The position numbers and the translations under genes were made by a program. This document shows positions 32,495-64,000 of a stretch of DNA of 64,000 nt, piece by piece. The notes below the pieces were generated by a model that worked only from the letters and a program-made list of their open reading frames with translations, searched no databases and was not told where the DNA came from. This stretch comes from Thunnus maccoyii. Its lineage: Eukaryota; Chordata; Actinopteri; Scombriformes; Scombridae. Each line of letters begins with the position of its first letter. The first letter of the stretch is position 1. The stretch spans positions 20,848,505-20,912,504 of the forward strand of contig NC_056535.1 of assembly GCF_910596095.1 (NCBI RefSeq), written 5' to 3'.

Positions 32495-32928
32495 TCATCT
32501 AGGGTTGATGTTCCAAACGTCTGGTCGTTTTGTTGTGACCTGGAGAAACACAAGAAGGACAGCATATTAAATCAACTTTTAAACTATGATCTCACATTTA
32601 CCTGCTCTTGGATTCTAAAATCTAACACTTTTTTGGTACTATATGTACAGAAAAATAAACAAGAATACCTGCAATCGGGTGTCAACATTTTCTAGATGTG
32701 GCCAAAAACCACGTGATGTGTAAGTGCCCGCAAATCCCAAGTTGTGCTCTCCTGGACAAAATAATATGATAATTTTGAAACTGTGTACAGCATGTCCTTG
32801 CTCTGCATTTGTTTACATCATTGAAAAAGATCAGTGATTACTAAAAAACATATATACCTGTATCTGAGAAGTCAAAGAAATCTTCTTCAAAAGCAGACAG
32901 TCTTCTGTTATAGGAATTGTTCCTTCTC
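32495..32928 (-). CDS. Mucin cytoplasmic tail exons (three)
   Basis: Exon 32858-32928 begins after the membrane exon and encodes RRNNSYNRRLSAFEEDFFDF. Exon 32669-32751 encodes GTYTSRGFWPHLENVDTRLQ. The last coding exon, 32495-32539, encodes VTTKRPDVWNINPR and a TGA stop. The tail is about 65 residues, with acidic and aromatic clusters. The ENVDT...KRP motif is shared with human MUC17 and relatives (from memory of the family), which is the strongest family marker. Mammalian relatives end in a PDZ ligand; this tail ends in NINPR and does not. Splice sites are good at each join, including acceptors TTTGTCCAG and TGTTTCTCCAG. Confidence 0.8.
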
Positions 32929-35900
32929 CTAAAATAAAGACAGCTTCATCAGTTTCACATGACAATGTTTATTACTGTATATCTACAGGCTACGAGGAAG
33001 ATTAATTTGTCTATACAGCACCAGTAAAAGGTTTGGACACACCTTCCCATTTACATGAATGAGAACATGTGTCCAAACTTTTGACTGGTATTGTAGGAAG
33101 ATGCATTTTAGGCATCAAAACCTACCAAATGCCTGTATACTTTTTTTTGACCACAACAGCAATGACAATGATAATCAAGAGCAGGAGTGCTGCTGCCAGT
33201 GATCCAAACAGTGCTCCATAGAAACCTGGACCCCGGCGGAAGAGCTCACACTGTGGGCCATAAAACTGCTCCAGGCTAGACTCGTAACACCTATGTCGAA
33301 AGGCCACAAAAGTGAAGTACGTTGACAAAATTATTATTATGAACAAGCATATTAGATGTATCTAAGCTCTTTGCAATTAAAATAAAGTAAAAAGTGGATG
33401 GTTGGGCTTACCTGCAAATGGACCCTATGTAAATGTCATTAAGACAATCTCCATGATGATGACAGTAATCAGGGTTTGTTTTGCATGGTCCAACACACTG
33501 CCACTGACCATTACTAATCACGGCAGTGTAATCAACAAACCGACTGCAGTTAACAAAAGGCTTCAAGTCTGTGATATCTGATTGATAAAAAAAATGTTAC
33601 GTATTAATCATTTTGTAGGAGTATCATCACACAAAAATAGAAATTTTGACAAATTGAATAAACACTATTATAAGCAATATGAGAAATACACATTCAGCGT
33701 TGACATATATTCACTTACTTTTAATCTCAGGTGACTGGAAGGTGAGTCCATTTAACTGCACACTGGCATTATTAAATGCCCGAGAAATCTTATTGAGGTT
33801 ATTTGTGTCATTCAAGATGTTGGTCAACACCCCATCTAGTTTGGTGTTGACATAGTGGATTTGTGTTTCATTGTTCAGATAGTTGTACTCTGCTACGCTC
33901 TCTGCAACAACAGATCCTGGTCTACAATAGGTAAATAGAAATATATTACCAAATGAAAACAATTTCTACTTGGATAAATAGTACTCATTTAAATAATTTT
34001 ATCAGTAAAGTTTAATAAAAACCTACATTAAATTGATGATTTGTACTTTTTTAAAGGCCAGTGGATCAGCTTCTTTGCACAGGGCTTCGAGCTGGAAATG
34101 AGAACATGACAGATGTGACATTTGCTATTATTGCCCGGTAAATAATTATTAGTTAGTGGTTATAAGACAGAGGTAAATATGCTGAAGTGAGATCACTTAT
34201 TGTGCAAAAATCATTAAATCATGCCACAATAACATATGCCTTACCTCCTTTCTTAATTTGTTGATGAATTTCAAGGACTCAAGTGAGTTTAAATTTTTAT
34301 AAGCATCCACAAAATTGATGTTGATTTTCATTGTAACATTTACCCGTCGAGTTGGTATTGCTCCGGAATCTGGAAAAAAAAACAACAGATGACACCCTTA
34401 TATTAATATTGCAATAACATGATATATACATTTCAGTAACATTTTACATTCAATGTGGTGAGAAATATCACTTCGAACAGCAAATAAATTTGAAATTAAC
34501 ATATTGCTAAAAGCTTAAAACTTATCTCTGCGTTCAAAAGTTATTTTCATCTTAAACATTATTATGAAGAACTGTAGTTGGGAAGAAAAAGTCTCACCAA
34601 TATTAGGGTGGGTGTTGTTCTGTCCAAAAACACAGGAATCTCCATAGACTGATTCTTGACAATGGCAGTGACATCTGCCTAGTGTCGTGTTGAATATACA
34701 CTCTCCCCCGTTACACTGACAGTCCTCATCTCTGCACTGAGGAGTTGTAGATGGTGTTGTCACAGTGACAGTGGCATTTGAGAGAGGGATAATGGTAGAT
34801 GTTTTAACTGTGTTTGAGCTGATGATTTCTGCTGATGTCAAAGCCTTTGAAGTTTGTGTCATTGGTAAAGATGTTTGTGGATTGCTACTTGTTTTTCCAT
34901 TAGTTGTCTCTTCACTTGTGGATACAGCAGTAGGTTTTGTCAAAGGTGTTGTGTTCGAGGAGACTGTAGAAGGTGTATGACTTGTAACTGAAGAATTTGA
35001 TTGTGGTCTGACAGTAGGTGTAGGTGGAAAAGAAGTTTGTGTCATGACATTAGTTGTCTGTGTGGTGTGCTTGGAAGCCGTGGACAGCGATGAGGTGAAC
35101 TCAGTTGGCAGATGTGACTCTGTTGATAAAGTTGTTGTTGTAGGTGTAACTGTATTTGTTGATGTAGAAAGTGCTTGTTTGGTTGTCAACAGTGTGGTAA
35201 TTGGAGAGATTGTAGAGGTTGCACTTGATGTTCCCTGACTGTCAATTGGAAGCCGAGTTGTGTTCTCAGTTGATATTGTTGTTGTTTGAATAATGACAGC
35301 AGGTGTGGTTACGTTGGAATTGGTAGATAGTGTAAATCCAGTTGAGGGAATTACTGAACTTGAAGCTGATGATGCAGTTGTTGTTGTCTGTGCTAGTGGT
35401 GAGGTTGAGTTAGTCATTGAATCTTTCTGAGTTGATGCTGTTTGCTCAGACATTCCAGTTGTTTCTGTATTCTGAAGGGTTGATGGTTGTGAAACAGTTG
35501 TAGATGTGGATGATGGTGATGATCTAATAGATTCGCTTGTTACAGTGACTGGCATACTCTGTGTTGAGGAAGAAGGTCCGGGAGATGTTTGAGTGAAATG
35601 ACTAATCAATGGAGTGACTGTAGATGGTAAATTAGATGAAACCTTGGAAATTATCGGGAAATTGATATTTGATGTGGAATAATCAGTGTTGATAGAGGCT
35701 GTAACTTCATTTGTGGTAATAGTTGAGGTAGATGCTGTTGATTCAGTTGTTCCTGTAGGTGGCGGTGTTGTCACAGATGTAGACTGCAGCTCTGTGGGAG
35801 AGTACAGTATTGTGGATGATTCCTGGATTGTTTGCGTAAGCAGAGTTGTGTTTGTATGAGTACTTATTGAAGGGAATAAGGAGGGTAAATTGGGTGAAAC

Positions 35901-38900
35901 CTCTGTATTTGTGGGGAAAGTGCTTGTTGTTGTGGAATGATCAATGTTGACAGTGGCTGTAATTTCGTTTGTGGTGAGTGTTGAGGTTGATGCTGATGAT
36001 TCAGTTGTCCCTGTGGGTGTTGTTGTCGTAACAAATGTAGACTGTGGCTCTGTGGGTGAGGACATTATTGTTGTAGATGATTCCTGGATGGTTGGTGGTA
36101 GCTGAGTTGTATTTGTGTGATTGCTTATTGGAGGGAATGTGAAGGTTGAACTGGGTGATGTCTTGGTACTTGTCAGGTTATTGACCGTTGTGAAAATGTC
36201 AGTTGCAGTAGTTTTTCTAACTCCGCCTGTAATGACTGTTGAAGTTGATAGCATAGATTCAGTTCTTCCTGTAGGTGTCACCGTCGTGACAGATGAAGAC
36301 GGTCGCTCTGTAGGTGAGGACAAGATTTTTGTAGATGATTCCTGGCTGGTTGGTGGTAGCTGAGTTGTGTTTGTGTGAGTGCCTATTGTAGGGGATAAAG
36401 AGGGTGGATTGGGCGAAACCCCTGTATTTGTGCGGGAACTGATAGTTGTGGAATGATCAGTGTTGGCAGTTTGAGGAACTTCATTTGTGGTGACTGTTTG
36501 TTTTGTTTCAGTTGTTCCTGTGGGTCCCACCGTTGTAAAAAATGTAGATTGTGGCTCTGCAGGGGAGGACGTTTTGGTTGTAGATCTTTCCTGGCTGCTT
36601 ACCAAAAGCTGAGTTGTATCCGGATTTGTTGGTGTTTCAGATTTGAGTCCAGGAGATGTTTGACTAAAATGAGTGGTTAAAGGAGGTAGTGTGGAGGGTG
36701 AACTGGGTGAAAGCTCTGCATTTGTTGGTAAATTGATGGTTCTTGTGGAATGATCAACGTTAGTAGCTTTAGTAATTTCATTTGTGGTGAGTCTTGAGGT
36801 TGACAGCATTGATTCAGTTGTTCCTGTGGGTGTCGCCATTGTGACAGGTGTAGACGGTGGCTCTGTGGTTGAGGACATTATTGTTGTAGATGATTTCTGG
36901 CTGCTTGGCGGAATCTGAGTTGTGTTCGTGTGAGTTCCTATTGTAGTGGATAAAGAGGGTGAATTGGGCAAAACCTCTGTATTTGTGGGAGAACTGAACA
37001 TTGTGGAGTGATCAGGGTTGGTAGCTTTAGTAACTTCATTTGTGGTGAGTGTTGAGGTTGACAGCATTGATTCAGTTGTTCCTGTGGGTGTCGCCATTGT
37101 CAGAGATGTAGACTGTGGCTCTGTGGGTGAGGATATTTTTGTTGTAGAGATTTCCTGGCTGGTTGGTGGAAGCTGAGTTGTGTTTGTGTGAGTGCCTATT
37201 GTTGGGGATAAAGAGGGTGAATTGGATGAAACCTCTGTATTTGTGGGGGAACTGGAAGTTGTGGACTGATCAGGGTTAGTAGTTGTAGTGACTTCATTTG
37301 TGGTGAGTGTTGAGGTTGACAACATTGATTCAGTTGTTCCTGTGGGTGTCGCCATTGTCAGAGATGTAGACTGTGGCTCTGTGGGTGAGGATATTTTTGT
37401 TGTAGAGAATTCCTGGCTGGTTGGTGGAAGCTGAGTTGTGTTTGTGTGAGTGCTTATTGTAGGGGATAAAGAGGGTGAATTGGGCAAAACCTCTGTATTT
37501 GTGGGGGAACTGAAAGTTGTGGTATGATCAGTGTTGGTAATTTTGGTAACTTCATTTGTGGTGAGTGCTGAGGTTGACAACATTGATTCAGTTGTTCCTG
37601 TGGGTGTCACCATTGTCACAGATGTAGACTGTGGCTCTGTGGGGGAGGACATTTTTGTTGTAGATGATTCCTGGCTGGTTGGTGGTAGCTGAGATGTGTT
37701 TGTGTGATTGCTCATGGGAGGGAATGTGGAAGTTGAACCGGGTGATACCTCAGTACTTGTCAGGTTATTGATAGTCGTGACAATGTCAGTTGCTGTGGTT
37801 TTTCTAACTCCACTTGTGGTGACTGTTGAGGTTGACACCATTGATTCAGTTGTTCTTATGGGTGTTGCCATTGTCACAGATGTAGATTGTGACTCAGTAG
37901 GTGAGGACATTATTGTTGTAGATGATAACTGGCTGCTTGGTGGAAGCTGAGTTGTGTTTGTGTGAGTGCTGGTTGTTGGGATTCTGGAAGGTAAACTGGT
38001 TGATACCTCTGTACTTGTCGGGAAATTCCTAGGTGTTGTAGAATGATCAGTGTTGATAGTTGCTGTAACTCCAATTGTGGTGAGTACTGAGGATGATGCT
38101 GATGATTCAGATGTTCCTGTGGGTATCACTGTCGTAACAGATGTAGACTGTGGCTCTGTGGTTGAGAACATTATTGTTGTTGATGATTCTTGGCTTGTTA
38201 GCAGAATCTGAGTTGTGTTCATATGAGTGCTTATTGGAGGGAATGTGGAGGATGAACTGGGTGAAACCTCTGTATTTGTGGGGGAACTGACGGTTGTGGA
38301 ATGATCAGAGTTGGTACTCTTGGTAACTTCATTTGTGGTGAGAGTTGAGGTTGACACCTTTGATTCAGTTGTTCCTGTGGGTGTCACCGTGGTAAAAGAT
38401 GTAGACTGTGGCTCTGCAGGGGAGGACACTTTTGTTGAAGATGTTTCCTGGCTGCTTAGCAAAAGCTGAGTTGTATCTGGATTAGTTGGTGTTTCGGATT
38501 TGAGTCCAGGAGATGTTTGACTAAAATCAGTGGTTAAAGGCAGGGACGTGGAGGGTGAACTGGGTGAAACCTCTGTATTTGTTGGTAAATTGGTGGCTCT
38601 TGTGGAATGATCAGTGTTGGTAGTTTTACTAAGCTCATTTGTGGTGAGTGTTGAGGTTGACACCACTGATTCAGTTGTTCCTGTGGGTGTCACCATTGTC
38701 ACAGATGTAGACTGTGGCTCTGTGGGGGAGGACATTTTTGTTGTAGATGATTCCTGGCTGGTTGGTGGTAGCTGAGATGTGTTTGTGTGATTGCTCATGG
38801 GAGGGAATGTGGAAGTTGAACCGGGTGATACCTCAGTACTTGTCAGGTTATTGATAGTCGTGACAATGTCGGTTGCTGTGGTTTTTCTAACTCCACTTGT

Positions 38901-41900
38901 GGTGACTGTTGAGGTTGACACCATTGATTCAGTTGTTCTTATGGGTGTTGCCATTGTCACAGATGTAGATTGTGACTCAGTGGGTGAGGACATTATTGTT
39001 GTAGATGATAACTGGCTGCTTGGTGGAAGCTGAGTTGTGTTTGTGTGAGTGCTGGTTGTTGGGATTCTGGAAGGTAAACTGGTTGATACCTCTGTACTTG
39101 TCGGGAAATTCGTAGGTGTTGTAGAATGATCAGTGTTGATAGTTGCTGTAACTCCAATTGTGGTGAGTACTGAGGATGATGCGGATGATTCAGATGTTCC
39201 TGTGGGTATCACTGTCGTAACAGATGTAGACTGTGGCTCTGTGGTTGAGAACATTATTGTTGTTGATGATTCTTGGCTTGTTAGCAGAATCTGAGTTGTG
39301 TTCATATGAGTGCTTATTGGAGGGAATGTGGAGGATGAACTGGGTGAAACCTCTGTATTTGTGGGGGAACTGACGGTTGTGGAATGATCAGAGTTGGTAC
39401 TCTTGGTAACTTCATTTGTGAAGAGAGTTGAGGTTGACACCTTTGATTCAGTTGTTCCTGTGGGTGTCACCGTGGTAAAAGATGTAGACTGTGGCTCTGC
39501 AGGGGAGGACACTTTTGTTGAAGATGTTTCCTGGCTGCTTAGCAAAAGCTGAGTTGTATCTGGATTAGTTGGTGTTTCGGATTTGAGTCCAGGAGATGTT
39601 TGACTAAAATCAGTGGTTAAAGGCAGGGACGTGGAGGGTGAACTGGGTGAAACCTCTGTATTTGTTGGTAAATTGGTGGCTCTTGTGGAATGATCAGTGT
39701 TGGTAGTTTTACTAAGCTCATTTGTGGTGAGTGTTGAGGTTGACACCACTGATTCAGTTGTTCCTGTGGGTGTCACCACTGTCACAGATGTAGACTGTGG
39801 CTCTGTGGGGGAGGACATTTTTGTTGTAGATGATTCCTGGCTGGTTGGTGGTAGCTGAGATGTGTTTGTGTGATTGCTCATGGGAGGGAATGTGGAAGTT
39901 GAACCGGGTGATACCTCAGTACTTGTCAGGTTATTGATAGTCGTGACAATGTCAGTTGCTGTAGTTTTTCTAACTCCACTTGTGGTGACTGTTGAGGTTG
40001 ACACCATTGATTCAGTTGTTCTTATGGGTGTTGCCATTGTCACAGATGTAGATTGTGACTCAATGGGTGAGGACATTATTGTTGTAGATGATAACTGGCT
40101 GCTTGGTGGAAGCTGAGTTGTGTTTGTGTGAGTGCTGGTTGTTGGGATTCTGGAAGGTAAACTGGTTGATACCTCTGTACTTGTCGGGAAATTCCTAGGT
40201 GTTGTAGAATGATCAGTGTTGATAGTTGCTGTAACTCCAATTGTGGTGAGTACTGAGGATGATGCTGATGATTCAGATGTTCCTGTGGGTATCACTGTCG
40301 TAACAGATGTAGACTGTGGCTCTGTGGTTGAGAACATTATTGTTGTTGATGATTCTTGGCTTGTTAGCAGAATCTGAGTTGTGTTCATATGAGTGCTTAT
40401 TGGAGGGAATGTGGAGGATGAACTGGGTGAAACCTCTGTATTTGTGGGGGAACTGACAGTTGTGGAATGATCAGAGTTGGTACTCTTGGTAACTTCATTT
40501 GTGAAGAGAGTTGAGGTTGACACCTTTGATTCAGTTGTTCCTGTGGGTGTCACCGTGGTAAAAGATGTAGACTGTGGCTCTGCAGGGGAGGACACTTTTG
40601 TTGAAGATGTTTCCTGGCTGCTTAGCAAAAGCTGAGTTGTATCTGGATTAATTGGTGTTTCGGATTTGAGTCCAGGAGATGTTTGACTAAAATCAGTGGT
40701 TAAAGGCAGGGACGTGGAGGGTGAACTGGGTGAAACCTCTGTATTTGTTGGTAAATTGGTGGCTCTTGTGGAATGATCAGTGTTGGTAGTTTTACTAAGC
40801 TCATTTGTGGTGAGTGTTGCGGTTGACACCACTGATTCAGTTGTTCCTGTGGGTGTCACCATTGTCACAGATGTAGACTGTGGCTCTGTGGGGGAGGACA
40901 TTTTTGTTGTAGATGATTCCTGGCTGGTTGGTGGTAGCTGAGATGAGATTGTGTGATTGCTCATGGGAGGGAATGTGGAAGTTGAACCGGGTGATACCTC
41001 AGTACTTGTCAGGTTATTGATAGTCGTGACAATGTCAGTTGCTGTAGTTTTTCTAACTCCACTTGTGGTGACTGTTGAGGTTGACACCATTGATTCAGTT
41101 GTTCTTATGGGTGTTGCCATTGTCACAGATGTAGATTGTGACTCAGTGGGTGAGGACATTATTGTTGTAGATGATAACTGGCTGCTTGGTGGAAGCTGAG
41201 TTGTGTTTGTGTGAGTGCTGGTTGTTGGGATTCTGGAAGGTAAACTGGTTGATACCTCTGTACTTGTCGGGAAATTCCTAGGTGTTGTAGAATGATCAGT
41301 GTTGATAGTTGCTGTAACTCCAATTGTGGTGAGTACTGAGGATGATGCTGATGATTCAGATATTCCTGTGGGTATCACTGTCGTAACAGATGTAGACTGT
41401 GGCTCTGTGGTTGAGAACATTATTGTTGTTGATGATTCTTGACTTGTTAGCGGAATCTGAGTTGTGTTCATATGAGTGCTTATTGGAGGGAATGTGGAGG
41501 ATGAACTGGGTGAAACCTCTGTATTTGTGGGGGAACTGACAGTTGTGGAATGATCAGAGTTGGTACTCTTGGTAACTTCATTTGTGGTGAGAGTTGAGGT
41601 TGACACCTTTGATTCAGTTGTTCCTGTGGGTGTCATCGTGGTAAAAGATGTAGACTGTGGCTCTGCAGGGGAGGACACTTTTGTTGAAGATGTTTCCTGG
41701 CTGCTTAGCAAAAGCTGAGTTGTATCTGGATTAGTTGGTGTTTCGGATTTGAGTCCAGGAGATGTTTGACTAAAATCAGTGGTTAAAGGCAGGGACGTGG
41801 AGGGTGAACTGGGTGAAACCTCTGTATTTGTTGGTAAATTGGTGGCTCTTGTGGAATGATCAGTGTTGGTAGTTTTACTAAGCTCATTTGTGGTGAGTGT

Positions 41901-53900: not shown

Positions 53901-56900
53901 TGAGTTGTGTTTGTGTGAGTGCTAATTGTTGGGATTCTGGAAGGTAAACTGGTTGATACCTCTGTACTTGTCGGGAAATTCCTAGGTGTTGTAGAATGAT
54001 CAGTGTTGATAGTTGCTGTAACTCCAATTGTGGTGAGTACTGAGGATGATGCTGATGATTCAGATGTTCCTGTGGGTATCACTGTCGTAACAGATGTAGA
54101 CTGTGGCTCTGTGGTTGAGAACATTATTGTTGTTGATGATTCTTGGCTTGTTAGCGGAATCTGAGTTGTGTTCATATGAGTGCTTATTGGAGGGAATGTG
54201 GAGGATGAACTGGGTGAAACCTCTGTATTTGTGGGGGAACTGAACGTTGTGGTACGATCAGTGTTGGTACTTTTAGTAACTTCATTTGTGGTGAGTGTTG
54301 AGGTTGACACCATTGATTCAGTTGTTCCTGTGGGTGTTGCCATTGTCCGAGATGTAGACTGTGTCTCTGTGGGTGAGGACATTATTGTTGTAGATGATAA
54401 CTGGCTGCTTGGTGGAAGCTGAGTTGTGTTTGTGTGAGTGCTGGTTGTTGGGATTCTGGAAGGTAAACTGGTTGATACCTCTGTACTTGTCGGGAAATTC
54501 CTAGGTGTTGTAGAATGATCAGTGTTGATAGTTGCTGTAACTCCAATTGTGGTGAGTACTGAGGATGATGCTGATGATTCAGATGTTCCTGTGGGTATCA
54601 CTGTCGTAACAGATGTAGACTGTGGCTCTGTGGTTGAGAACATTATTGTTGTTGATGATTCTTGGCTTGTTAGCGGAATCTGAGTTGTGTTCATATGAGT
54701 GCTTATTGGAGGGAATGTGGAGGATGAACTGGGTGAAACCTCTGTATTTGTGGGGGAACTGAACGTTGTGGTACGATCAGTGTTGGTACTTTTAGTAACT
54801 TCATTTGTGAAGAGAGTTGAGGTTGACACCTTTGATTCAGTTGTTCCTGTGGGTGTTGCCATTGTCCGAGATGTAGACTGTGTCTCTGTGGGTGAGGACA
54901 TTATTGTTGTAGATGATAACTGGCTGCTTGGTGGAAGCTGAGTTGTGTTTGTGTGAGTGCTGGTTGTTGGGATTCTGGAAGGTAAACTGGTTGATACCTC
55001 TGTACTTGTCGGGAAATTCCTAGGTGTTGTAGAATGATCAGTGTTGATAGTTGCTGTAACTCCAATTGTGGTGAGTACTGAGGATGATGCTGATGATTCA
55101 GATGTTCCTGTGGGTATCACTGTCGTAACAGATGTAGACTGTGGCTCTGTGGTTGAGAACATTATTGTTGTTGATGATTCTTGGCTTGTTAGCGGAATCT
55201 GAGTTGTGTTCATATGAGTGCTTATTGGAGGGAATGTGGAGGATGAACTGGGTGAAACCTCTGTATTTGTGGGGGAACTGAACGTTGTGGTACGATCAGT
55301 GTTGGTACTTTTAGTAACTTCATTTGTGGTGAGTGTTGAGGTTGACACCATTGATTCAGTTGTTCCTGTGGGTGTTGCCATTGTCCGAGATGTAGACTGT
55401 GTCTCTGTGGGTGAGGACATTATTGTTGTAGATGATAACTGGCTGCTTGGTGGAAGCTGAGTTGTGTTTGTGTGAGTGCTGGTTGTTGGGATTCTGGAAG
55501 GTAAACTGGTTGATACCTCTGTACTTGTCGGGAAATTCCTAGGTGTTGTAGAATGATCAGTGTTGATAGTTGCTGTAACTCCAATTGTGGTGAGTACTGA
55601 GGATGATGCTGATGATTCAGATGTTCCTGTGGGTATCACTGTCGTAACAGATGTAGACTGTGGCTCTGTGGTTGAGAACATTATTGTTGTTGATGATTCT
55701 TGGCTTGTTAGCGGAATCTGAGTTGTGTTCATATGAGTGCTTATTGGAGGGAATGTGGAGGATGAACTGGGTGAAACCTTTGTATTTGTGGGGGAACTGA
55801 ACGTTGTGGTACGATCAGTGTTGGTACTTTTAGTAACTTCATTTGTGGTGAGTGTTGAGGTTGACACCATTGATTCAGTTGTTCCTGTGGGTGTTGCCAT
55901 TGTCCGAGATGTAGACTGTGTCTCTGTGGGTGAGGACATTATTGTTGTAGATGATAACTGGCTGCTTGGTGGAAGCTGAGTTGTGTTTGTGTGAGTGCTG
56001 GTTGTTGGGATTCTGGAAGGTAAACTGGTTGATACCTCTGTACTTGTCGGGAAATTCCTAGGTGTTGTAGAATGATCAGTGTTGATAGTTGCTGTAACTC
56101 CAATTGTGGTGAGTACTGAGGATGATGCTGATGATTCAGATGTTCCTGTGGGTATCACTGTCGTAACAGATGTAGACTGTGGCTCTGTGGTTGAGAACAT
56201 TATTGTTGTTGATGATTCTTGGCTTGTTAGCGGAATCTGAGTTGTGTTCATATGAGTGCTTATTGGAGGGAATGTGGAGGATGAACTGGGTGAAACCTCT
56301 GTATTTGTGGGGGAACTGAACGTTGTGGTACGATCAGTGTTGGTACTTTTAGTAACTTCATTTGTGGTGAGTGTTGAGGTTGACACCATTGATTCAGTTG
56401 TTCCTGTGGGTGTTGCCATTGTCCGAGATGTAGACTGTGTCTCTGTGGGTGAGGACATTATTGTTGTAGATGATAACTGGCTGCTTGGTGGAAGCTGAGT
56501 TGTGTTTGTGTGAGTGCTGGTTGTTGGGATTCTGGAAGGTAAACTGGTTGATACCTCTGTACTTGTCGGGAAATTCCTAGGTGTTGTAGAATGATCAGTG
56601 TTGGTAGTTGCTGTAACTCCAATTGTGGTGAGTACTGAGGATGATGCTGATGATTCAGATGTTCCTGTGGGTATCACTGTCGTAACAGATGTAGACTGTG
56701 GCTCTGTGGTTGAGAACATTATTGTTGTTGATGATTCTTGGCTTGTTAGCGGAATCTGAGTTGTGTTCATATGAGTGCTTATTGGAGGGAATGTGGAGGA
56801 TGAACTGGGTGAAACCTCTGTATTTGTGGGGGAACTGAACGTTGTGGTACGATCAGTGTTGGTACTTTTAGTAACTTCATTTGTGGTGAGTGTTGAGGTT

Positions 56901-59900
56901 GACACCATTGATTCAGTTGTTCCTGTGGGTGTTGCCATTGTCCGAGATGTAGACTGTGTCTCTGTGGGTGAGGACATTATTGTTGTAGATGATAACTGGC
57001 TGCTTGGTGGAAGCTGAGTTGTGTTTGTGTGAGTGCTGGTTGTTGGGATTCTGGAAGGTAAACTGGTTGATACCTCTGTACTTGTCGGGAAATTCGTAGG
57101 TGTTGTAGAATGATCAGTGTTGATAGTTGCTGTAACTCCAATTGTGGTGAGTACTGAGGATGACGCGGATGATTCAGATGTTCCTGTGGGTATCACTGTC
57201 GTAACAGATGTTGACTGTGGCTCTGTGGGGGAGGACATTTTTGTTGTAGAAGATTCCTGGCTGATTGGTGTTGTAAATGTTTCCAGGCAAATGGGCCCTT
57301 TGTGAATGTCATTAACACATTCCCCATGTTGATGACAGTAATCAGGGTTTGTTTTGCATGGTCCAACACACTGCCATTGACCATTACTAATCTCAGCAGT
57401 GTAATTGGCAAACCGACTACAGTTAACAAAAGGCCTCAGGTCCGTGATATCTGATTGATTAAAAAAAATGTTACATATTAATAATTTTGTATGAGTGTCG
57501 TCACACAAAAATAGAAATTTCGACAAATTGAATGAACAGTCAAATAAGCAATATTTGTAATACACATTCAGAGTTGACATATAGTCACTTACTTTTAATC
57601 TCAGGTGACTGGAAGGTGAGTCCATATAACTGCACAGTGGCATTACCAAATGCCCGAGAAATCTTATTGAGGTTGCTTGTGTCATTCAAAATGTTGGTCA
57701 ACACACCATGTAGCTCAGTGTTGACATAGTGGATTTGTGTTTCATTGTTCAGATAGTTGTACTCCGCTACACTCTCTGCAACAACACTTCCTGGTCTACA
57801 ACAGGAAAATAGAAATATATTAACAATGAAAACAACTTCTACTTGAATAAAAAGTAATCATTCAAATAATTTTATCAGAAAAGTGTAAAACAAACTTACA
57901 TTAATTTTTTGATTTGTACTTTTTTAAAGGCCAGTGGATCCGCTTCTTTGCACAGAGCTTCGAGCTGGAAATGATAACATGACAGATGTGACATTTGCTA
58001 TTATTGCCTGGTAAATAATATTTAGTTAGTAGTTGTAAGACAGAGGTAAATACTCTGAAGTGAGATCACTTATTGTGTAAAAATCATTAAGTCATGCCAC
58101 AATAAAGAATTCTCTACCTCCTCTGTTAACGTATTGATGAACTTCAATGACTCAGGTGAGTTTAACTTAGAATAAGCATCCACAAAAGTCATGTTGATTT
58201 TCAACATAACATTTACTTGTCGAATTGGTATTGCTCCGGTATCTGAAAAAAAAGGATAGATAACACCCTTATATTAACATTGAAATAACATGATATGTAC
58301 GTTTCAGTAACATTTTACATTCAATGTTGTGAGAAATATCACTTCCAACAGAAAATAAATTTTAAATTACCATATTGCTAAAAGCTTAAAACTTATCTCT
58401 GCGTTCAAAAGTTATTTTCATCTTAAACATTATTATGAAGAACTGTAGTTGGGAAGAAAAAGTCTCACCAATATTAGGGTTGGTGTTGTTCTGTCCAAAA
58501 ACACAGGAATCTCCATAGACTGATTCTTGACAATGGCAGTGACATCTGCCTAGTGTCGTGTTGAATATACACTCTCCCCCGTTACACTGACAGTCCTCAT
58601 CTCTGCACTGAGGAGTTGTAGATGGTATTGTCACAGTGACAGTGGCATTTGAGAGAGGTATAGAGGTAGATGTTTTAACTGTGTTTGAGCTGATGATTTC
58701 TGCTGATGTCAAAGCCTTTGAAGTTTGTGTCATTGGTAAAGATGTTTGTGGATTGCTACTTGTTTTTCCATTAGTTGTCTCTTCACTTGTGTATGCAGCA
58801 GTAGGTTTTGTCAAAGGTGTTGTGTTCGAGGAAACTGTAGTAGGTGTATGACTTGTAACTGTAGAATTTGATTGTGGTCTGACAGTCGGAGTAGGTGGAA
58901 AAGAAGTTTGTGTCACGACATTAGTTGTCTGTGAGGTGTGCTTGGAAGCCGTGGACAGCGATGAGTTGAACTCAGTTGGCAGATGTGACTCTGTGGATAC
59001 AGTTGCTGTAGGTGTTACTGTACTGGTTGATATAGAGAGTTCCTGTCTGGTTGTCAACAGTGTGGTAATTGGAGGGATTGTAGAAGTTGCACTTGATTTT
59101 CCCTGACTGCTTATAGGAAGCTGAGATGTGTTCTCAGTTGCTATTGTTGTTTGAATACTGACAGCAGGTGTGGAGGGGGAGGGCTCTGCAGGGGAGGACA
59201 TTTTTGTTGTAGAAGATTCCTGGCTGGTAGGTGGAAGCTGAGTTGTGTTTGTGTGAGTGCCTATTGTAGGGGATAAAGAGGGTGAATTGGGCGAAACCTC
59301 TGTATTCATGGGGGAACTGAAAGTTGTGGAGTGATCAGGGTTGGTAGCTTTAGTAACTTCATTTGTGGTGAGTGTTGAGGTTGACAACATTGATTCAGTT
59401 GTCCCTGTGGGTGTTGCCATTGTCACAGATGTAGACTGTGTTTCTGTGGGGGAGGACATTTTTGTTGTAGATGTTTCCTGGCTGGTAGGTGGAAGCTGAG
59501 TTGTGTTTGTGTGAGTGCCTATTTGAGGGGATAAAGAGGGTGAATTGGCTGAAACCTCTGTGTTCGTGGGGGAACTGGAAGTTGTGGAGTGCTCAGGGTT
59601 GGCAGTTTTAGTAACTTCATTTGTGGTGAGTGTTGAGGTTGACAACATTGATTCAGTTCTTGTTGGTGTCGCAATTGTCACAGATGTAGACTGTGGCTCT
59701 GTGGGTGAGGATATTTTTGTTGTAGAGAATTCCTGGCTGGTTGGTGGTAGCTGAGTTGTGTTTGTGTGAGTGCCTATTGTCGTTGATAAAGAGGGTGAAT
59801 TGGATGAAACTGCTGTATTTGTGGGGGAACTGAAAGTTGTGGAGTGATCAGGGTTGGTAGCTTTGGTAACTTCATTTGTGGTGAGTGTTGAGGTTGACAA

Positions 59901-62900
59901 CATTGATTCAGTTGTTCCTGTGGTTGTCGCCATTGTCCGAGATGTAGACTGTGGCTCTGTGGGTGAGGATATTTTTGTTGTAGATGTTTCCTGGCTGGTT
60001 GGTGGAAGCTGAGTTGTGTTAGTGTGAGTGCCTATCTTAGGGGATAAAGAAAGTGAATTGGATGAAACCTCTGTATTTGTGGGGGAACTGGAAGTTGTGG
60101 AGTGATCAGGGTTGGTAGTTGTAGTAACTTCATTTGTGGTTAGTGTTGAGTTTGACAACATTGATTCAGTTGTTCCTGTGGGTGTCGCCATAGTCACAGA
60201 TGTAGACTGTGGCTCTGTGGGGGAGGATATTTTTGTTGTAGAAGATTCCTGGCTGGTAGGTGGAAGCTGAGTTGTGTTTGTGTGAGTGCCTATTGTCGTT
60301 GATAAAGAGGGTGAATTGGATGAAACTGCTGTATTTGTGGGGGAACTGAAAGTTGTGGAGTGATCAGGGTTGGTAGCTTTAGTAACTTCATTTGTGGTGA
60401 GTGTTGAGGTTGACAACATTGATTCAGTTGTTCCTCTGGGTGTCACCATTGTCACAGATGTAGACTGTGTTTCTGTGGGTGAGGACATTTTTGTTGTAGA
60501 AGATTCCTTGCTGGTAGGTGGTAGCTGAGTTGTGTTTGTGTGAGTGCCTATTGTAGGGGATAAAGAGGGTGAATTGGGTGAAACCTCTGTATTCATGGGG
60601 GAACTGGAAGTTGTGGAGTAATCAGGGTTGATAGCTTTAGTAACTTCATTTGTGGTGAGTGTTGAGGTTGACAACATTGATTCAGTTGTTCCTCTGGGTG
60701 TCACCATTGTCACAGATGTAGACTGTGTTTCTGTGGGTGAGGACATTTTTGTTGTAGAAGATTCCTGGCTGGTAGGTGGTAGCTGAGTTGTGTTTGTGTG
60801 AGTACGCATTGTAGGCGATGAAGAGGGTGAATTGGATGAAACCTCTGTATTTGTAGGGGAACTGAAAGTTGTGGAATGATAAGGGTTGGTAGATTTAATA
60901 ACTTCATTTGTGGTGAGTGTTGAGGTTGACAACATTGATCCAGTTGTTCCTGTGGGAGTCACCATTGTCACAGATGTAGACTGTGGCTCTGTGGGGGAGG
61001 ACATTTTTGTTGCTGAAGATTCCTGGCTGGTTGTTGGTAGCTGAGTTGTGTTTGTGTGAGTGCCTATCTTAGGGGATAAAGAAAGTGAATTGGATGAAAC
61101 TGCTGTATTTGTGGGGGAACTGAAAGTTGTGGAGTGATCAGGGTTGGTAGCTTTGGTTACTTCATTTGTGGTGAGTGTTGAGGTTGACAACATTGATTCA
61201 GTTGTTCCTGTGGTTGTCGCCATTGTCCGAGATGTAGACTGTGGCTCTGTGGGTGAGGATATTTTTGTTGTAGATGTTTCCTGGCTGGTTGGTGGAAGCT
61301 GAGTTGTGTTTGTGTGAGTGCCTATTGTAGGGGATAAAGAGGGTGAATTGGGTGAAACCTCCGTATTCATGGGGGAACTGGAAGTTGTGGAGTAATCAGG
61401 GTTGATAGCTTTAGTAACTTCATTTGTGGTGAGTGTTGAGGTTGACAACATTGATTCAGTTGTTCCTCTGGGTGTCGCCATAATCACAGATGTAGACTGT
61501 GGCTCTGTGAGTGAGGATATTTTTGTTGTAGAAGATTCCTGGCTGGTTGGTGGAAGCTGAGTTGTGTTTGTGTGAGTGCCTATTTTAGGGGATAAAGAAA
61601 GTGAATTGGATGAAACCTCTGTATTTGTGGGGGAACTGAAAGTTGTGGAGTGATCAGGGTTGGTAGTTGTAGTAACTTCATTTGTGGTTAGTGTTGAGTT
61701 TGACAACATTGATTCAGTTGTTCCTGTGGGTGTCGCCATAGTCACAGATGTAGACTGTGTTTCTGTGGGTGAGGACATTTTTGTTGTAGAAGATTCCTGG
61801 CTGATTGTTGGTAGCTGAGTTGTGTTTGTGTGAGTGCCTATTGTAGGGGATAAAGAGGGTGAACTGGGTGAAACTGCTGTATTTGTAGGGGAACTGAAAG
61901 TTGTGGAGTGCTCAGGGTTGGTAGCTTTAGTAACTTCATTTGTGGTGAGTGTTGAGGTTGACAACATTGATTCAGTTGTTCTTGTGGGTGTCGCCATTGT
62001 CACAGATGTAGAATGTGGCTCTGTGGGGGAGGACACTTTTGTTGTAGAAGATTCCTGGCTGGTTGGTGGAAGCTGAGTTGTGTTTGTGTGAGTGCCTATT
62101 GTTGGGGATAAAGAGGGTGAATTGGATGAAACCTCTGTATTTGTGGGGGAACTGGAAGTTGTGGACTGATCAGGGTTGGTAGTTGTAGTGACTTCATTTG
62201 TGGTGAGTGTTGAGGTTGACAACATTGATTCAGTTGTTCCTGTGGGTGTCGCCATAGTCACAGATGTAGACTGTGTTTCTGTGGGTGAGGACATTTTTGT
62301 TGTAGAAGATTCCTGGCTGATTGTTGGTAGCTGAGTTGTGTTTGTGTGAGTGCCTATTGTAGGGGATAAAGAGGGTGAACTGGTTGAAACTGCTGTATTT
62401 GTAGGGGAACTGAAAGTTGTGGAGTGCTCAGGGTTGGTAGCTTTAGTAACTTCATTTGTGGTGAGTGTTGAGGTTGACAACATTAATTCAGTTGTTCTTG
62501 TGGGTGTCGCCATTGTCACAGATGTAGAATGTGGCTCTGTGGGGGAGGACACTTTTGTTGTCGAAGATTCCTGGCTGGTTGGTGGAAGCTGAGTTGTGTT
62601 TGTGTGAGTGCCTATTGTTGGGGATAAAGAGGGTGAATTGGATGAAACCTCTGTATTTGTGGGGGAACTGGAAGTTGTGGACTGATCAGGGTTGGTAGTT
62701 GTAGTGACTTCATTTGTGGTGAGTGTTGAGGTTGACAACATTGATTCAGTTGTTCCTGTGGGTGTCGCCATTGTCACAGATGTAGACTGTGGCTCTGTGG
62801 GGGAGGACATTTTTGTTGTTGAAGATTCCTGGCTGGTTGGTGGTAGCTGAGTTGTGTTGGTGTGAGTGCCTATCGGAGGGGATAAAGAGGGTGAATTGGG

Positions 62901-64000
62901 TGAAACCTCTGTATTCGTGGGGGAACTGGAAGTTGTGGAGTGCCCAGGGTTGGTAGCTTTGGCAACTTCATTTGTGGTGAGCGTTGAGGTTGACAACATT
63001 GATTCAGTTCTTGTGGGTGTCGCCATTGTCAGAGATGTAGACTGTGTTTCTGTGGGTGAGGACATTTTTGTTGTAAAAGATTCCTGGCTGGTTGGTGGTA
63101 GCTGAGTTGTGTTTGTGTGAGTGGCTATTGTAGGGGATAAAGAGGGTGAATTGGGTGAAACCTCTGTATTTGTGGGGGAACTGGAAGTTGTGGAGTGCTC
63201 AGGGTTGGCAGTTTTAGTAACTTCATTTGTGGTGAGTGTTGAGTTTGACAACATTGATTCAGTTCTTGTGGGTGTCGCAATTGTCACAGATGTAGACTGT
63301 GCCCCTGTGGGTGAGGATATTTTTGTTGTAGAAGATTCCTGGCTGGTTGGTGTTGTAAATGTTTCCAGGCAAATGGGCCCTTTGTGAATGTCATTAACAC
63401 ATTCCCCATGTTGATGACAGTAATCAGGGTTTGTTTTGCAAGGTCCGACACACTGCCATTGACCATTACTAATCTCAGCAGTGTAATTAGCAAACCGACT
63501 GCAGTTAACAAAAGGCTTCAGGTCTGTGATATCTGATTGATAAAAAAAACGTTACGTATTAATCATTTTGTCTGAGTATCATCACACAAATTAGAAATTT
63601 TGAGAAATTGAATTTAGAATCAAATAAGCAATATGTGAAATACACATTCAGAGTTGACTTATAGTCACTTACTTTTAATCTCAGGTGACTGGAAAATGAG
63701 TCCATTTAACTGCACACTGGCATTATCAAATGCCCGAGAAATCTTATTGAGGTTGCTTGTGTCTTTCAAGATGTTGGTCAACACACCATCTAGCTCATTG
63801 TTGACAAAGTGGATTTGTGTTTCATTGTTCAGATAGTTGTACTCCGCTACACTCTCTGCAACAACACTTCCTGGTCTACAACAGGAAAATAGAAATATAT
63901 TAACAATGAAAACAACTTCTACTTGAATAAAAAGTAATCATTCAAATAATTTTATCAGAAAAGTGTAAAACAAACTTACATTAATTTTTTGATTTGTACT
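32495..64000 (-). CDS. Giant multi-SEA transmembrane mucin, MUC3/12/17-like (5' end beyond window)
   Basis: This is one transcription unit. From 3' to 5' the exons are 32495-32539, 32669-32751, 32858-32928, 33126-33290, 33412-33577, then four cassettes of SEA exons plus a giant mucin exon, then part of a fifth SEA. All introns are GT-AG and every phase joins. Coding sequence inside the window totals about 28.2 kb, or roughly 9,390 residues. The architecture of each cassette is PTS-EGF-SEA-EGF, and only the last ends in a membrane helix. This order and the tail motif NVDTR...KRP match the MUC3/MUC12/MUC17 family of gut-type membrane mucins, which form the glycocalyx on the apical surface. No signal peptide is visible because the gene continues to the right. 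Treating the cassettes as one gene rests on the 140-bp introns between them and on the absence of any other membrane, tail or signal-peptide exon. Confidence 0.85.
33014..33095. mobile_element. 82-bp hairpin MITE in a mucin intron
   Basis: TACAGCACCAGTAAAAGGTT at the left matches the reverse complement of the right end (TACAATACCAGTCAAAAGTT) with few changes. The element is flanked by TA on the left and lies in the intron between the membrane exon and the first tail exon. The terminal word ACCAGTCAAAAGTTTGGACA is widespread in vertebrate DNA-transposon derivatives. Confidence 0.75.
33126..33290 (-). CDS. Mucin exon: end of EGF plus transmembrane helix
   Basis: The exon starts inside a codon (Arg split by the intron) with CYESSLEQFYGPQCELF, which closes the EGF begun in the upstream exon. 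It continues into FYGALFGSLAAALLLLIIIVIAVVV, one strong membrane helix of about 23 residues, followed by a KKK stop-transfer run and YTGI. This is the only membrane segment found in the whole mucin region, so it anchors the entire chain. Lengths and phases (166-nt exon before, 71-nt after) fit exactly. Confidence 0.9.
33412..33577 (-). CDS. Mucin exon: complete terminal EGF, first part
   Basis: The exon encodes NITDLKPFVNCSRFVDYTA and then WQCVGPCKTNPDYCHHHGDC to SIC, and ends at a proper donor (GCAG|GTAAGC). Cysteine spacing and the CHHHGDC core are EGF-like and parallel the second EGF of MUC17. Unlike its internal homologues at the start of each giant exon, this copy keeps the splice site that joins it to the last two cysteines in the membrane exon. 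Confidence 0.85.
33719..34369 (-). CDS. SEA domain, cassette 1 (membrane-proximal), three exons
   Basis: Exons are 34245-34369 (125 nt), 34027-34091 (65 nt) and 33719-33921 (203 nt). Together they encode about 131 residues: RRVNVTMKININFVDAYKNL..., LEALCKEADPLAFKKVQI, then PGSVVAESVAEYNYLNN. GSVVA matches the SEA autoproteolysis site, where the chain cleaves between Gly and Ser and the halves stay bound. Several N-glycosylation sequons (NVT, NNET, NDT, NAS) are visible. This copy sits next to the membrane, so cleavage here would allow shedding of the whole ectodomain. Confidence 0.88.
34598..45106 (-). CDS. Giant mucin exon, cassette 1 (10,509 nt)
   Basis: A single exon encodes 3,503 residues in phase 1-1. 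It opens after acceptor TCAATCAG with ITDLKPFVNCSRFANYTAEI and a truncated EGF (CHHHGEC ... GPICLETFTT). It then runs through more than 3,300 Cys-free Thr/Ser/Pro-rich residues and closes with an EGF-like module (PQCRDEDCQCNGGECIF ... CHCHCQESVYGDSC). The donor is ATTG|GTGAGAC. The 5' two-thirds is seven copies of a 361-residue unit. The 3' third holds more diverged monomers of about 86 residues and a non-periodic Thr/Ser region. Each monomer carries an NTT or NTS sequon in a THTNTTQLPP-like context. Dense O-glycosylation is expected. The frame is open through the part before 44,885, so the exon begins well upstream of the first candidate start codon. Confidence 0.9.
37610..44885 (-). repeat. 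Higher-order repeat array: 1,083 bp x 7 (last copy three-quarters)
   Basis: Units begin at TPTGTTESKVSTSTL at about 44885, 43802, 42719, 41636, 40553, 39470 and 38387, exactly 1,083 bp apart. Each unit is 361 residues: three monomers of about 86 residues and one of about 103 that contains a unique insert (SQTSPGLKSETPTNPDTTQL). The seventh copy lacks the long monomer and runs straight into diverged monomers. Copies differ by only a few residues (for example TPT/TPR before NFPTSTE, STLTT/STLFT), so homogenisation is recent. Confidence 0.93.
45249..45921 (-). CDS. SEA domain, cassette 2, three exons
   Basis: Exons are 45797-45921 (125 nt), 45579-45643 (65 nt) and 45249-45451 (203 nt), with sizes and phases identical to cassette 1. 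The products include TGAIPIRQVNVMLKINMTF, LEALCKEADPLAFKRVQIKK and PGSVVAESVAEYNYLNN. The cleavage signature GSVVA is intact. The intron between the first two coding blocks holds a short AATAAATAATA expansion (about 45528-45561) that the otherwise similar cassette 3 lacks. This SEA lies between two mucin exons and is not next to a membrane segment. Confidence 0.87.
46149..51551 (-). CDS. Giant mucin exon, cassette 2 (5,403 nt)
   Basis: This exon encodes 1,801 residues in phase 1-1, with the same plan as cassette 1: ITDL...NCSRFANYTAEI, truncated EGF, CLETFTT, mucin array, terminal EGF (CQCDRGEC ... CHCHCQESVYGDSC). The array is a mosaic. The 5' end is one full 361-residue unit of the cassette 1 type (50,330-51,330). 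It switches inside a monomer to 173-residue dimers of the cassette 3 type (to about 48,190). Diverged monomers and a Thr/Ser-rich linker close the exon. The donor is ATTG|GTGAGATT. Confidence 0.9.
48190..50330 (-). repeat. 519-bp dimer array in cassette 2
   Basis: Four near-identical units lie at a 519-bp (173-residue) spacing, followed at the 3' end by a partial one. Each is two monomers: one with TESMVSTSTLTTNEVTKSTN and one with SESSASSSVLTTIGVTAT. Copies differ by single residues (for example a TMA/KMA change and NTD versus INTD). Confidence 0.9.
51694..52343 (-). CDS. SEA domain, cassette 3, three exons
   Basis: Exons are 52219-52343 (125 nt), 52001-52065 (65 nt) and 51694-51896 (203 nt). 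The exon with the cleavage site (PGSVVAESVAEYNYL) appears nearly identical to its cassette 2 homologue 6,445 bp to the left. Phases and flanking AG/GT sites are conserved. The product has the same sequons (NMT, NNET, NDT, NAT) and no internal stop. Confidence 0.87.
52570..57450 (-). CDS. Giant mucin exon, cassette 3 (4,881 nt)
   Basis: This exon encodes 1,627 residues in phase 1-1. It opens with ITDLRPFVNCSRFANYTAEI and a truncated EGF (CHQHGEC ... GPICLETFTTPI). It then passes into about seven 173-residue dimers, a few diverged monomers, the SPSTPAVSIQTT linker and Thr/Ser-rich sequence shared with cassettes 2 and 4, and a terminal EGF (CQCDRGEC ... CHCHC). An open frame also continues through the upstream intron to about 57685, but the acceptor at 57451 is conserved in all cassettes, so the exon is taken to start there. 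Confidence 0.9.
53840..57215 (-). repeat. 519-bp dimer array in cassette 3
   Basis: Units recur every 519 bp, with equivalent points at 54180, 54699, 55218, 55737, 56256 and 56775. These are the same two-monomer units as in cassette 2. One copy (about 54,700-54,940) carries the STLFT variant seen also in two 1,083-bp units of cassette 1, which suggests sequence exchange between arrays. Confidence 0.9.
57593..58242 (-). CDS. SEA domain, cassette 4, three exons
   Basis: Exons are 58118-58242 (125 nt), 57900-57964 (65 nt) and 57593-57795 (203 nt). All three sit exactly 5,899 bp to the right of their cassette 3 homologues, and the introns are also closely alike. GSVVA is intact and frames are open. 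Confidence 0.87.
58469..63532 (-). CDS. Giant mucin exon, cassette 4 (5,064 nt)
   Basis: This exon encodes 1,688 residues in phase 1-1. It opens with ITDLKPFVNCSRFANYTAEI and a truncated EGF ending GPICLETFTTPTSQESS. It continues through about sixteen 86-residue monomers of the TESMLSTSTLTTNEVT type, the AEPSPSTPAVSIQTT linker, a Thr/Ser-rich stretch, and a terminal EGF (CQCNGGEC ... CHCHCQESVYGDSC). The array is more monomeric and more diverged than the others, with local 516-bp dimers. The frame is open from the acceptor at 63533 onward. Confidence 0.9.
59170..63290 (-). repeat. 86-residue (258-bp) monomer array with 516-bp dimers
   Basis: Monomers follow the pattern TESMLSTSTLTTNEVT-x-TNPDHSTT-SSPTNTEVS-x-NSPSLSP-x-IGTHTNTTQLPP. 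Part of the array (about 61,800-63,100) repeats every 516 bp. A few units drop two bases' worth of codons (TPTRTESM versus TPTRTTESM), always in multiples of three. This exon shows the basic repeat from which the longer units in cassettes 1-3 are built. Confidence 0.88.
63673..64000 (-). CDS. SEA domain, cassette 5 (partial at window edge)
   Basis: The 203-nt exon 63673-63875 is complete and carries PGSVVAESVAEYNYLNN; the 65-nt exon enters at 63980 and runs off the window. It shows that at least one more mucin cassette, and the 5' end of the gene with the signal peptide, must lie to the right. Confidence 0.85.

Follow-up and report, generated by a model that had tools for sequence, protein, structure and literature searches.

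A Thunnus maccoyii membrane mucin gene of the MUC3/12/17 type with five predicted PTS-SEA cassettes and one membrane exon

The mucin gene and its repeated cassette

We analyzed a stretch of 64,000 nucleotides of Thunnus maccoyii DNA (assembly GCF_910596095.1, 782 Mb in 54 contigs; contig NC_056535.1, C3:20848505-20912504), hereafter the window, for a membrane mucin gene on its minus strand. The window was extended rightward by 79.5 kb of new DNA, and the joined region of 143.5 kb contains no N. On the minus strand, the window contains four giant open frames, of 3540, 1826, 1732, and 1721 amino acids (aa), and a fifth of 2598 aa lies to its right at 64469-72262 (window numbering continued past 64000). 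All belong to one predicted gene running from 73169 to 32495, with 26 coding exons (36,072 nt) that encode 12,023 aa and a single terminal stop at 32495. Every intron of the model is GT-AG, and every splice phase fits from the start exon to the stop. The gene is completed by 9.2 kb beyond the right edge of the window, which hold the fifth giant frame and a signal-type exon; both this exon and the giant exon 1 acceptor were chosen by reading the sequence with a phase check. In each of the five giant exons, the coding frame has no stop, while the other two minus-strand frames have 50-179.

A preliminary description made from the window had proposed a PTS-EGF-SEA-EGF cassette repeated in one reading frame with a single membrane anchor, and the matching phases and lack of internal stops bear this out. 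The span it gave (32495-64000) has the right stop end but leaves out giant exon 1 with the start exon before it, as well as all of the first SEA exon and some of the second. Its minimum of 9,390 residues agrees with the 28,183 coding nt (~9,394 codons) inside the window. Repetition of the cassette was recognized correctly, but the count of "four and a half" was an in-window view that becomes five with the 9.2 kb beyond the right edge included.

One cassette consists of a giant exon followed by three SEA exons of 125, 65, and 203 nt (SEAa, SEAb, and SEAc), and there are five cassettes in total (Table 1). The length of SEAc is 203 nt in 5/5 copies, exactly as first described. The giant exons (1627-3503 codons) begin, in copies 2-5, with the post-SEA region and half of a second EGF (EGF2), continue through the PTS, and close with an eight-cysteine, EGF1-like end; the SEA starts are spaced 1,758 to 3,634 aa apart. 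Downstream of SEA 5 are an EGF2 exon, a membrane exon, and three exons for a tail of 73 residues that ends ...WNINPR.

The bulk composition of residues 201-2500 is 28.6% T, 20.7% S, and 9.1% P, and the four giant frames in the window have 46-48% S+T and 8.5-9.3% P. By bulk composition, calculated with no sliding window, these values lie within the definition of a mucin PTS domain (>40% S+T, at least 5% P) given in PMC5728529. Measured by the spacing of one motif, giant exons 1 and 2 have PTS steps of ~86 aa (and 172), and exon 3 has steps of 172-173 aa; in exon 5 most steps are 361 aa, and exon 4 is mixed. At 38548-44912 of the window, giant exon 5 carries a 1083-bp higher-order repeat, each copy made of about four 258-bp units. 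Because exon 5 has this repeat and the others have mostly shorter steps, each giant exon seems to have been homogenized independently.

All giant exons begin in phase 1, and all SEA triplets end in it; cassettes could therefore be skipped or lost in any number with the frame intact. A single gene whose mature transcripts mostly skip cassettes, so that most protein molecules carry one SEA domain or two, would fit the phase 1-1 structure of all cassettes, since every skip keeps the frame. However, giant exons 1-4 are open over 1627-2534 codons and their cassettes show a ratio of nonsynonymous to synonymous change (dN/dS) below 1 relative to cassette 5, and we consider predominant skipping unlikely.

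The hydropathy mean exceeds 1.6 over 19 residues in only two stretches of the 12,023 aa, one N-terminal (~10-38) and one C-terminal (11924-11958). Were the N-terminal stretch (~residues 15-36) an uncleaved signal anchor, the protein would form a loop with a membrane anchor at each end. The length of the stretch (~22 residues), the RR before it, and cleavage sites that look weak by eye under the -3/-1 rule speak for this topology; a site such as ASC-V fits the same rule, however, and a cleaved signal with type-I topology is the rule for the MUC3/12/17 family. We judge a signal anchor to be quite unlikely.

Table 1. Features of the predicted mucin gene, in the order of transcription (positions in window numbering, continued past 64000)
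Feature	Position	Strand	Remark
Signal-type start exon	73169-73052	-	Outside window; phase-checked
Giant PTS exon 1	72150-64549	-	7602 nt; outside window
SEAa exon, cassette 1	64322-64198	-	Outside window
SEAb exon, cassette 1	64044-63980	-	65 nt; in-window part 63980..64000
SEAc exon, cassette 1	63673..63875	-	203 nt; contains PGSVVAES
Giant exon 2	58469..63532	-	5064 nt; SEA region end, half EGF2, PTS, EGF1-like Cys-rich end
SEA triplet, cassette 2	58242-58118, 57964-57900, 57795-57593	-	Exon model
Giant exon 3	52570..57450	-	4881 nt; PTS mostly 172-173-aa steps
SEA triplet, cassette 3	52343-52219, 52065-52001, 51896-51694	-	Exon model
Giant exon 4	46149..51551	-	5403 nt; exon model
SEA triplet, cassette 4	45921-45797, 45643-45579, 45451-45249	-	Exon model
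Giant exon 5	34598..45106	-	10509 nt; PTS mostly 361-aa (1083-nt) steps
SEA triplet, cassette 5, membrane-proximal	34369-34245, 34091-34027, 33921-33719	-	Pfam SEA E 2.8e-5 spliced
EGF2 first-half exon, sole complete EGF2	33412..33577	-	Exon ends ...SICR
Membrane exon: EGF2 rest and single transmembrane helix	33126..33290	-	Site of imuc primers
Three cytoplasmic-tail exons and stop	32928-32858, 32751-32669, 32539-32495	-	Exon model

SEA domains, EGF junctions, and divergence of the copies

A SEA domain is placed between the PTS and the membrane helix by its best Pfam match, which is below the cut-off, and by PGSVV at the position of the MUC1 cut site. SEA was the top Pfam match for each of the three spliced copies scanned of the five (copies 1, 2, and 5; E 2.6e-4, 1.1e-4, and 2.8e-5), and copy 5 again matched SEA at E 1.7e-4 in a scan with a longer query. 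The motif IPGSVVAES is present in 5/5 copies. In the MUC1 structure in the PDB, chain A ends ..FRPG, with the boundary to chain B falling between FRPG and SVVV.

Several results weigh against the assignment. All SEA scores are under the Pfam curated cut-off of 26.4 bits, and the longer cassette-1 query matched no Pfam family at E 0.1. An hhalign comparison with MUC1 covered 20 columns at 2.7% probability, while placing IPGSVVAES at the cut spot, and the motif reads GSVVAE here and GSVVV in MUC1. No SEA structure was found in the PDB by a sequence search with the spliced cassette at E 1 or by a search with the SEA profile. Internalin matches in the PDB profile search (E 0.025-0.079) were judged to be chance, as were Pfam matches to D_CNTX, TrbC_Ftype, SKA2, and Serine_rich. 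The sole Pfam SEA match of the first genome search lies on another contig (C11:23233593-23233745); the mucin SEA copies were missed by that profile search, probably because each is split over three exons with a low score per exon.

The SEA domain of such mucins is described as self-cleaved in the endoplasmic reticulum and as unfolding under force (PMC6705488). Because P-G-S-V-V is retained at the position of the G-S cut in MUC1, each tuna copy is probably self-cleaving, a prediction in which we place moderate confidence.

EGF domains are a feature of MUC3/12/17 mucins, and one is present ahead of the membrane helix in the terminal copy, with a score under the Pfam cut-off: spliced, this last EGF2 reads ...DYCHHHGDCLNDIYIGSIC-R-CYESSLEQFYGPQC and matches Pfam EGF_2 at E 5.7e-4 (20.6 bits vs a curated cut-off of 22.1). 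The four internal EGF2 copies are fragments with 4/6 cysteines that end ...GPICLETFTT and are fused to the next PTS. At the one junction scanned, that into giant exon 2, Pfam gave no EGF match for the internal EGF2. As a point against the proposed reading, EGF1 matched no Pfam family. The EGF-SEA-EGF order proposed in the preliminary description thus applies to the terminal cassette, while the second EGF is fragmentary at the four internal junctions. The DNA of 4/4 internal junctions departs from the EGF2 exon at one point, ATTTGC|CTGGA; after ATTTGC, the last copy continues AG|GTAAGC, while the internal copies continue CTGGA(A/G)ACATTTACAAC and then PTS. Since all four have this breakpoint in common, we infer a single founding join.

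Comparison of the copies revealed that they form a mosaic, as seen in both coding and intron differences. Cassettes 1 and 2 differ at 0/873 aligned nt from the EGF1 end through intron 3 (four segments summed) and then at 10/203 nt in SEAc and 16/140 in intron 4. SEAc is identical (0/203) among copies 2, 3, and 4, and copies 3 and 4 are identical in intron 4 and the next 150 nt. The identical stretches (0/873 between copies 1 and 2; 0/203 in SEAc among copies 2, 3, and 4) are what would be seen if the assembly had multiplied or misordered cassettes in a repetitive locus. Against such an artefact stand the mosaic itself, with copies 1 and 2 differing in SEAc and intron 4, the different PTS steps and lengths of the giant exons (4881 to 10509 nt), and the gapless 143.5 kb. 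We regard an artefact as very unlikely, although the exact cassette number in the assembly may be off.

Copy 5 differs from the others at 41-44/393 SEA nt and 59-85/623 intron nt, and on this measure the SEA exons are therefore not slower than the introns. Copies 2 and 3 differ from copy 4 at 4 and 3/393 coding nt and at 37 and 36/623 intron nt (Fisher p 5e-5 and 1.4e-5); low coding differences can also stem from gene conversion. Over EGF1-SEA-post-SEA, the dN/dS of copies 1-4 vs copy 5 is 0.41-0.44 (p 0.001-0.004, comparisons non-independent), and comparisons among copies 1-4 give values between 0.33 and 1.32. Decay of the internal SEA copies was rejected on the basis of the motif and frame kept in 5/5 copies and the dN/dS of 0.41-0.44 to copy 5, in tests that are non-independent (common copy 5, gene conversion) and with SEAa alone unconstrained. 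Two observations run counter to constraint: the highest dN/dS, 1.32, is that of pair 3-4 and comes from six changes only, and SEAa of cassette 5 (34245-34369) differs from copies 1-4 at 21-23/125 nt. Because the latter exceeds most introns, SEAa is without sign of constraint, hinting at relaxed or divergent selection on the membrane-proximal SEA.

One predicted gene with one membrane exon

The introns inside the array are 104-228 bp long. The three introns between SEAc and the next giant exon that had been named at the outset as inter-cassette introns of about 140 bp (45107-45248, 51552-51693, and 57451-57592) are exact, each 142 bp with GT..AG; the equivalent introns measure 140 bp (63533-63672) and 141 bp (33578-33718). 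We searched the five stretches between giant exons for a start-type exon, defined by an ATG, a hydrophobic stretch, and a splice donor, and found none with a donor. Two donorless candidates (63647 and 45999) were seen, and the same scan recovered the known exon at 73169. A signal-peptide exon inside the array, named in the preliminary description as a finding that would speak against one gene, is thus absent from these stretches in donor-bearing form. Polyadenylation-type hexamers (AATAAA/ATTAAA) occur in the array introns only as ATTAAA at 46045 and 34016, with six in the 901-bp first intron and one in the intron after the membrane exon.

We then examined cassette-protein matches over the assembly at E 0.01 or better, counts being lower bounds. 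There are at least 25 in the 782 Mb, and all 25 listed lie in the mucin gene as five cassettes of five pieces. The membrane exon and tail occur at one locus only among the matches listed, in agreement with the single membrane exon first claimed, and the shared post-SEA piece additionally matches the four internal copies. Rfam gave no match in the window at gathering scores.

These results bear on whether the locus is a tandem row of membrane-mucin genes, all with separate starts and ends, in which the anchor was assembled or recognized for the last one only. MUC3A, MUC3B, MUC12, and MUC17 form such a tandem cluster in humans (PMC9578598), and tandem genes were named as a possibility for the gilthead seabream intestinal mucin imuc (PMC11035888). 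However, SEA-to-giant introns of 140-142 bp are too short for a promoter, a 3' end, and a start exon, the membrane and tail exons are found once among the assembly matches listed, and all phases match; we find tandem genes highly unlikely. Two points weaken the single-gene model. The inter-giant introns have open hydrophobic windows of 19 residues (best 2.28-2.84, with 3.15 for the real helix), all in introns and none in predicted exons, and the start exon is a prediction, start exons having been sought only up to 73.2 kb. Taken together, the data indicate that the architecture is real in the assembly and that the gene is complete as predicted.

Relation to known mucins and to seabream imuc

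The predicted protein is a membrane mucin of the MUC3/12/17 type, and its novelty is the repeated SEA cassettes. It resembles MUC3A/3B, MUC12, and MUC17 in having a PTS exon, SEA, a single helix, and a tail (PMC9578598, PMC6705488). In humans, MUC3A and MUC3B comprise 12 exons, of which one is a PTS exon (PMC9578598), and MUC12, MUC13, and MUC17 have one SEA each (PMC4456727); in contrast, the tuna mucin has five PTS exons and five SEA domains. A class I PDZ motif at the C terminus is conserved in the human MUC3 cluster (PMC9578598), whereas the tuna protein ends NPR, without this motif. The C-terminal region aligned with a provisional human MUC12 sequence over 304 columns at 84.7 bits, and the score of the tail was reached by 0/2000 shuffles.

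Several SEA domains in one membrane mucin are also found in MUC16, which is of similar size. For MUC16, passages of PMC4456727 count ~56 SEA within ~60 repeats, each of ~156 aa, that follow an N-terminal glycosylated part; in the tuna gene, by contrast, the SEA domains are separated by giant exons and the EGF-like parts are repeated alongside. The contrast with MUC3/12/17 and MUC16 drawn in the preliminary description agrees with these published passages (PMC9578598, PMC6705488, PMC4456727). No mucin with an alternating PTS and SEA plan was found in the literature, as represented by titles, abstract starts, and passages of mainly open-access papers. The earlier statement that no such mucin had been described holds to this extent, but it had no means of taking in imuc, a probable counterpart for which the question of PTS linkage had already been posed. 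A different arrangement is that of IMPG1 and IMPG2, in which two SEA domains flank one mucin-like stretch with no repeated cassette; IMPG2 also has EGF and a helix.

As for the neighborhood, AP-small-subunit and cholinesterase-family genes are, we assume, neighbors of the human MUC3 cluster at 7q22. Among the matches listed, 0/25 for PF01217 (AP-small-subunit) and 0/89 for PF00135 (cholinesterase-family; 84/121 candidates scored) lie on the contig of the mucin. An open frame of 388 aa at 25416-26582 of the window (+), which is opposite in strand to the mucin and lies ~6 kb downstream of it, matches Pfam Inhibitor_Mig-6 (E 1.1e-7), and from its content we take it to be an ERRFI1-like last exon.

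The gilthead seabream intestinal mucin I-Muc/imuc (JQ277712, XM_030418634) is probably the counterpart of the tuna mucin. When the published imuc quantitative PCR primers were placed on both strands of the 143.5 kb, the best pair fell in the membrane exon in the right order and strand with 8/36 mismatches, whereas 0/500 composition-shuffled pairs reached 8 (best 9, in three). The primers span 33251 to 33150 here, that is 102 bp, and the figure 102 is printed behind the imuc primers in PMC6171182, where we take it as the product length. They encode CDLFR and VIAVI, and the mucin here reads CELFR and VIAVV. Like the tuna mucin, imuc is membrane-bound with a SEA adjoining the helix and an EGF before it (PMC3680472, PMC11035888), and large PTS stretches lie upstream on its chromosome (PMC11035888). 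Only the C terminus of imuc is identified in PMC11035888, and the passages of PMC3680472 and PMC11035888 make no mention of SEA repetition. The correspondence is loosened by further 4-mismatch sites of the reverse primer alone in the region and by the tail, which is 73 aa here vs 26-52 aa for three seabream membrane mucins including I-Muc (PMC3680472).

Among intestinal segments, imuc expression is highest in the posterior intestine; passages of PMC3680472 also report it as lowered by Enteromyxum leei infection, and gill imuc is up at 32 days of Sparicotyle exposure (PMC11035888). This pattern may be transferable to the tuna gene only if the two are orthologues. The authors in 2024 considered the upstream PTS stretches to be part of imuc or of a tandem mucin and wanted long reads (PMC11035888). 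The tuna gene favors the view that they belong to imuc, with primer sites that differ between the genomes.

With good confidence, we propose from the sequence that the locus is one gene of the MUC3/12/17 kind, the probable imuc counterpart, encoding five PTS rods and five SEA domains with one C-terminal helix. We hypothesize that a module of PTS, EGF1-like, SEA, and post-SEA parts was copied within the gene. The first internal cassette would have arisen when the EGF2 first-half exon was, in a single event, joined illegitimately to a PTS repeat, and unequal crossing over and gene conversion would then have multiplied and homogenized the cassettes. Each SEA would be cut during folding, with the halves staying together noncovalently. 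If each SEA is self-cleaved, the mature mucin in the epithelial glycocalyx would therefore be a chain of six polypeptide segments linked by five joints that force can release. More tentatively, and with less than even confidence, the glycocalyx may be shed stepwise: the six segments would be held only by five noncovalent SEA folds, and each step would leave a mucin that is shortened yet remains anchored; cassette number, and with it coat height and the number of joints, might vary in steps between individuals, species, or splice forms; and the membrane-proximal SEA (~10% coding-DNA divergence) might form a joint of its own kind, perhaps a stronger one.

In farmed fish, imuc serves as a marker for the state of gut and gills, and its assay, which sits in the membrane exon, may report one very large transcript. 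For a gene related to imuc, the tuna locus would answer the question of the upstream PTS concretely. SEA membrane mucins are usually described with one breakaway joint, at the base. With five serial SEA joints in a natural protein, the view of SEA as a mechanical fuse could be tested by comparison; the predicted architecture would also show a mucin gene gaining whole functional modules, beyond longer repeats.

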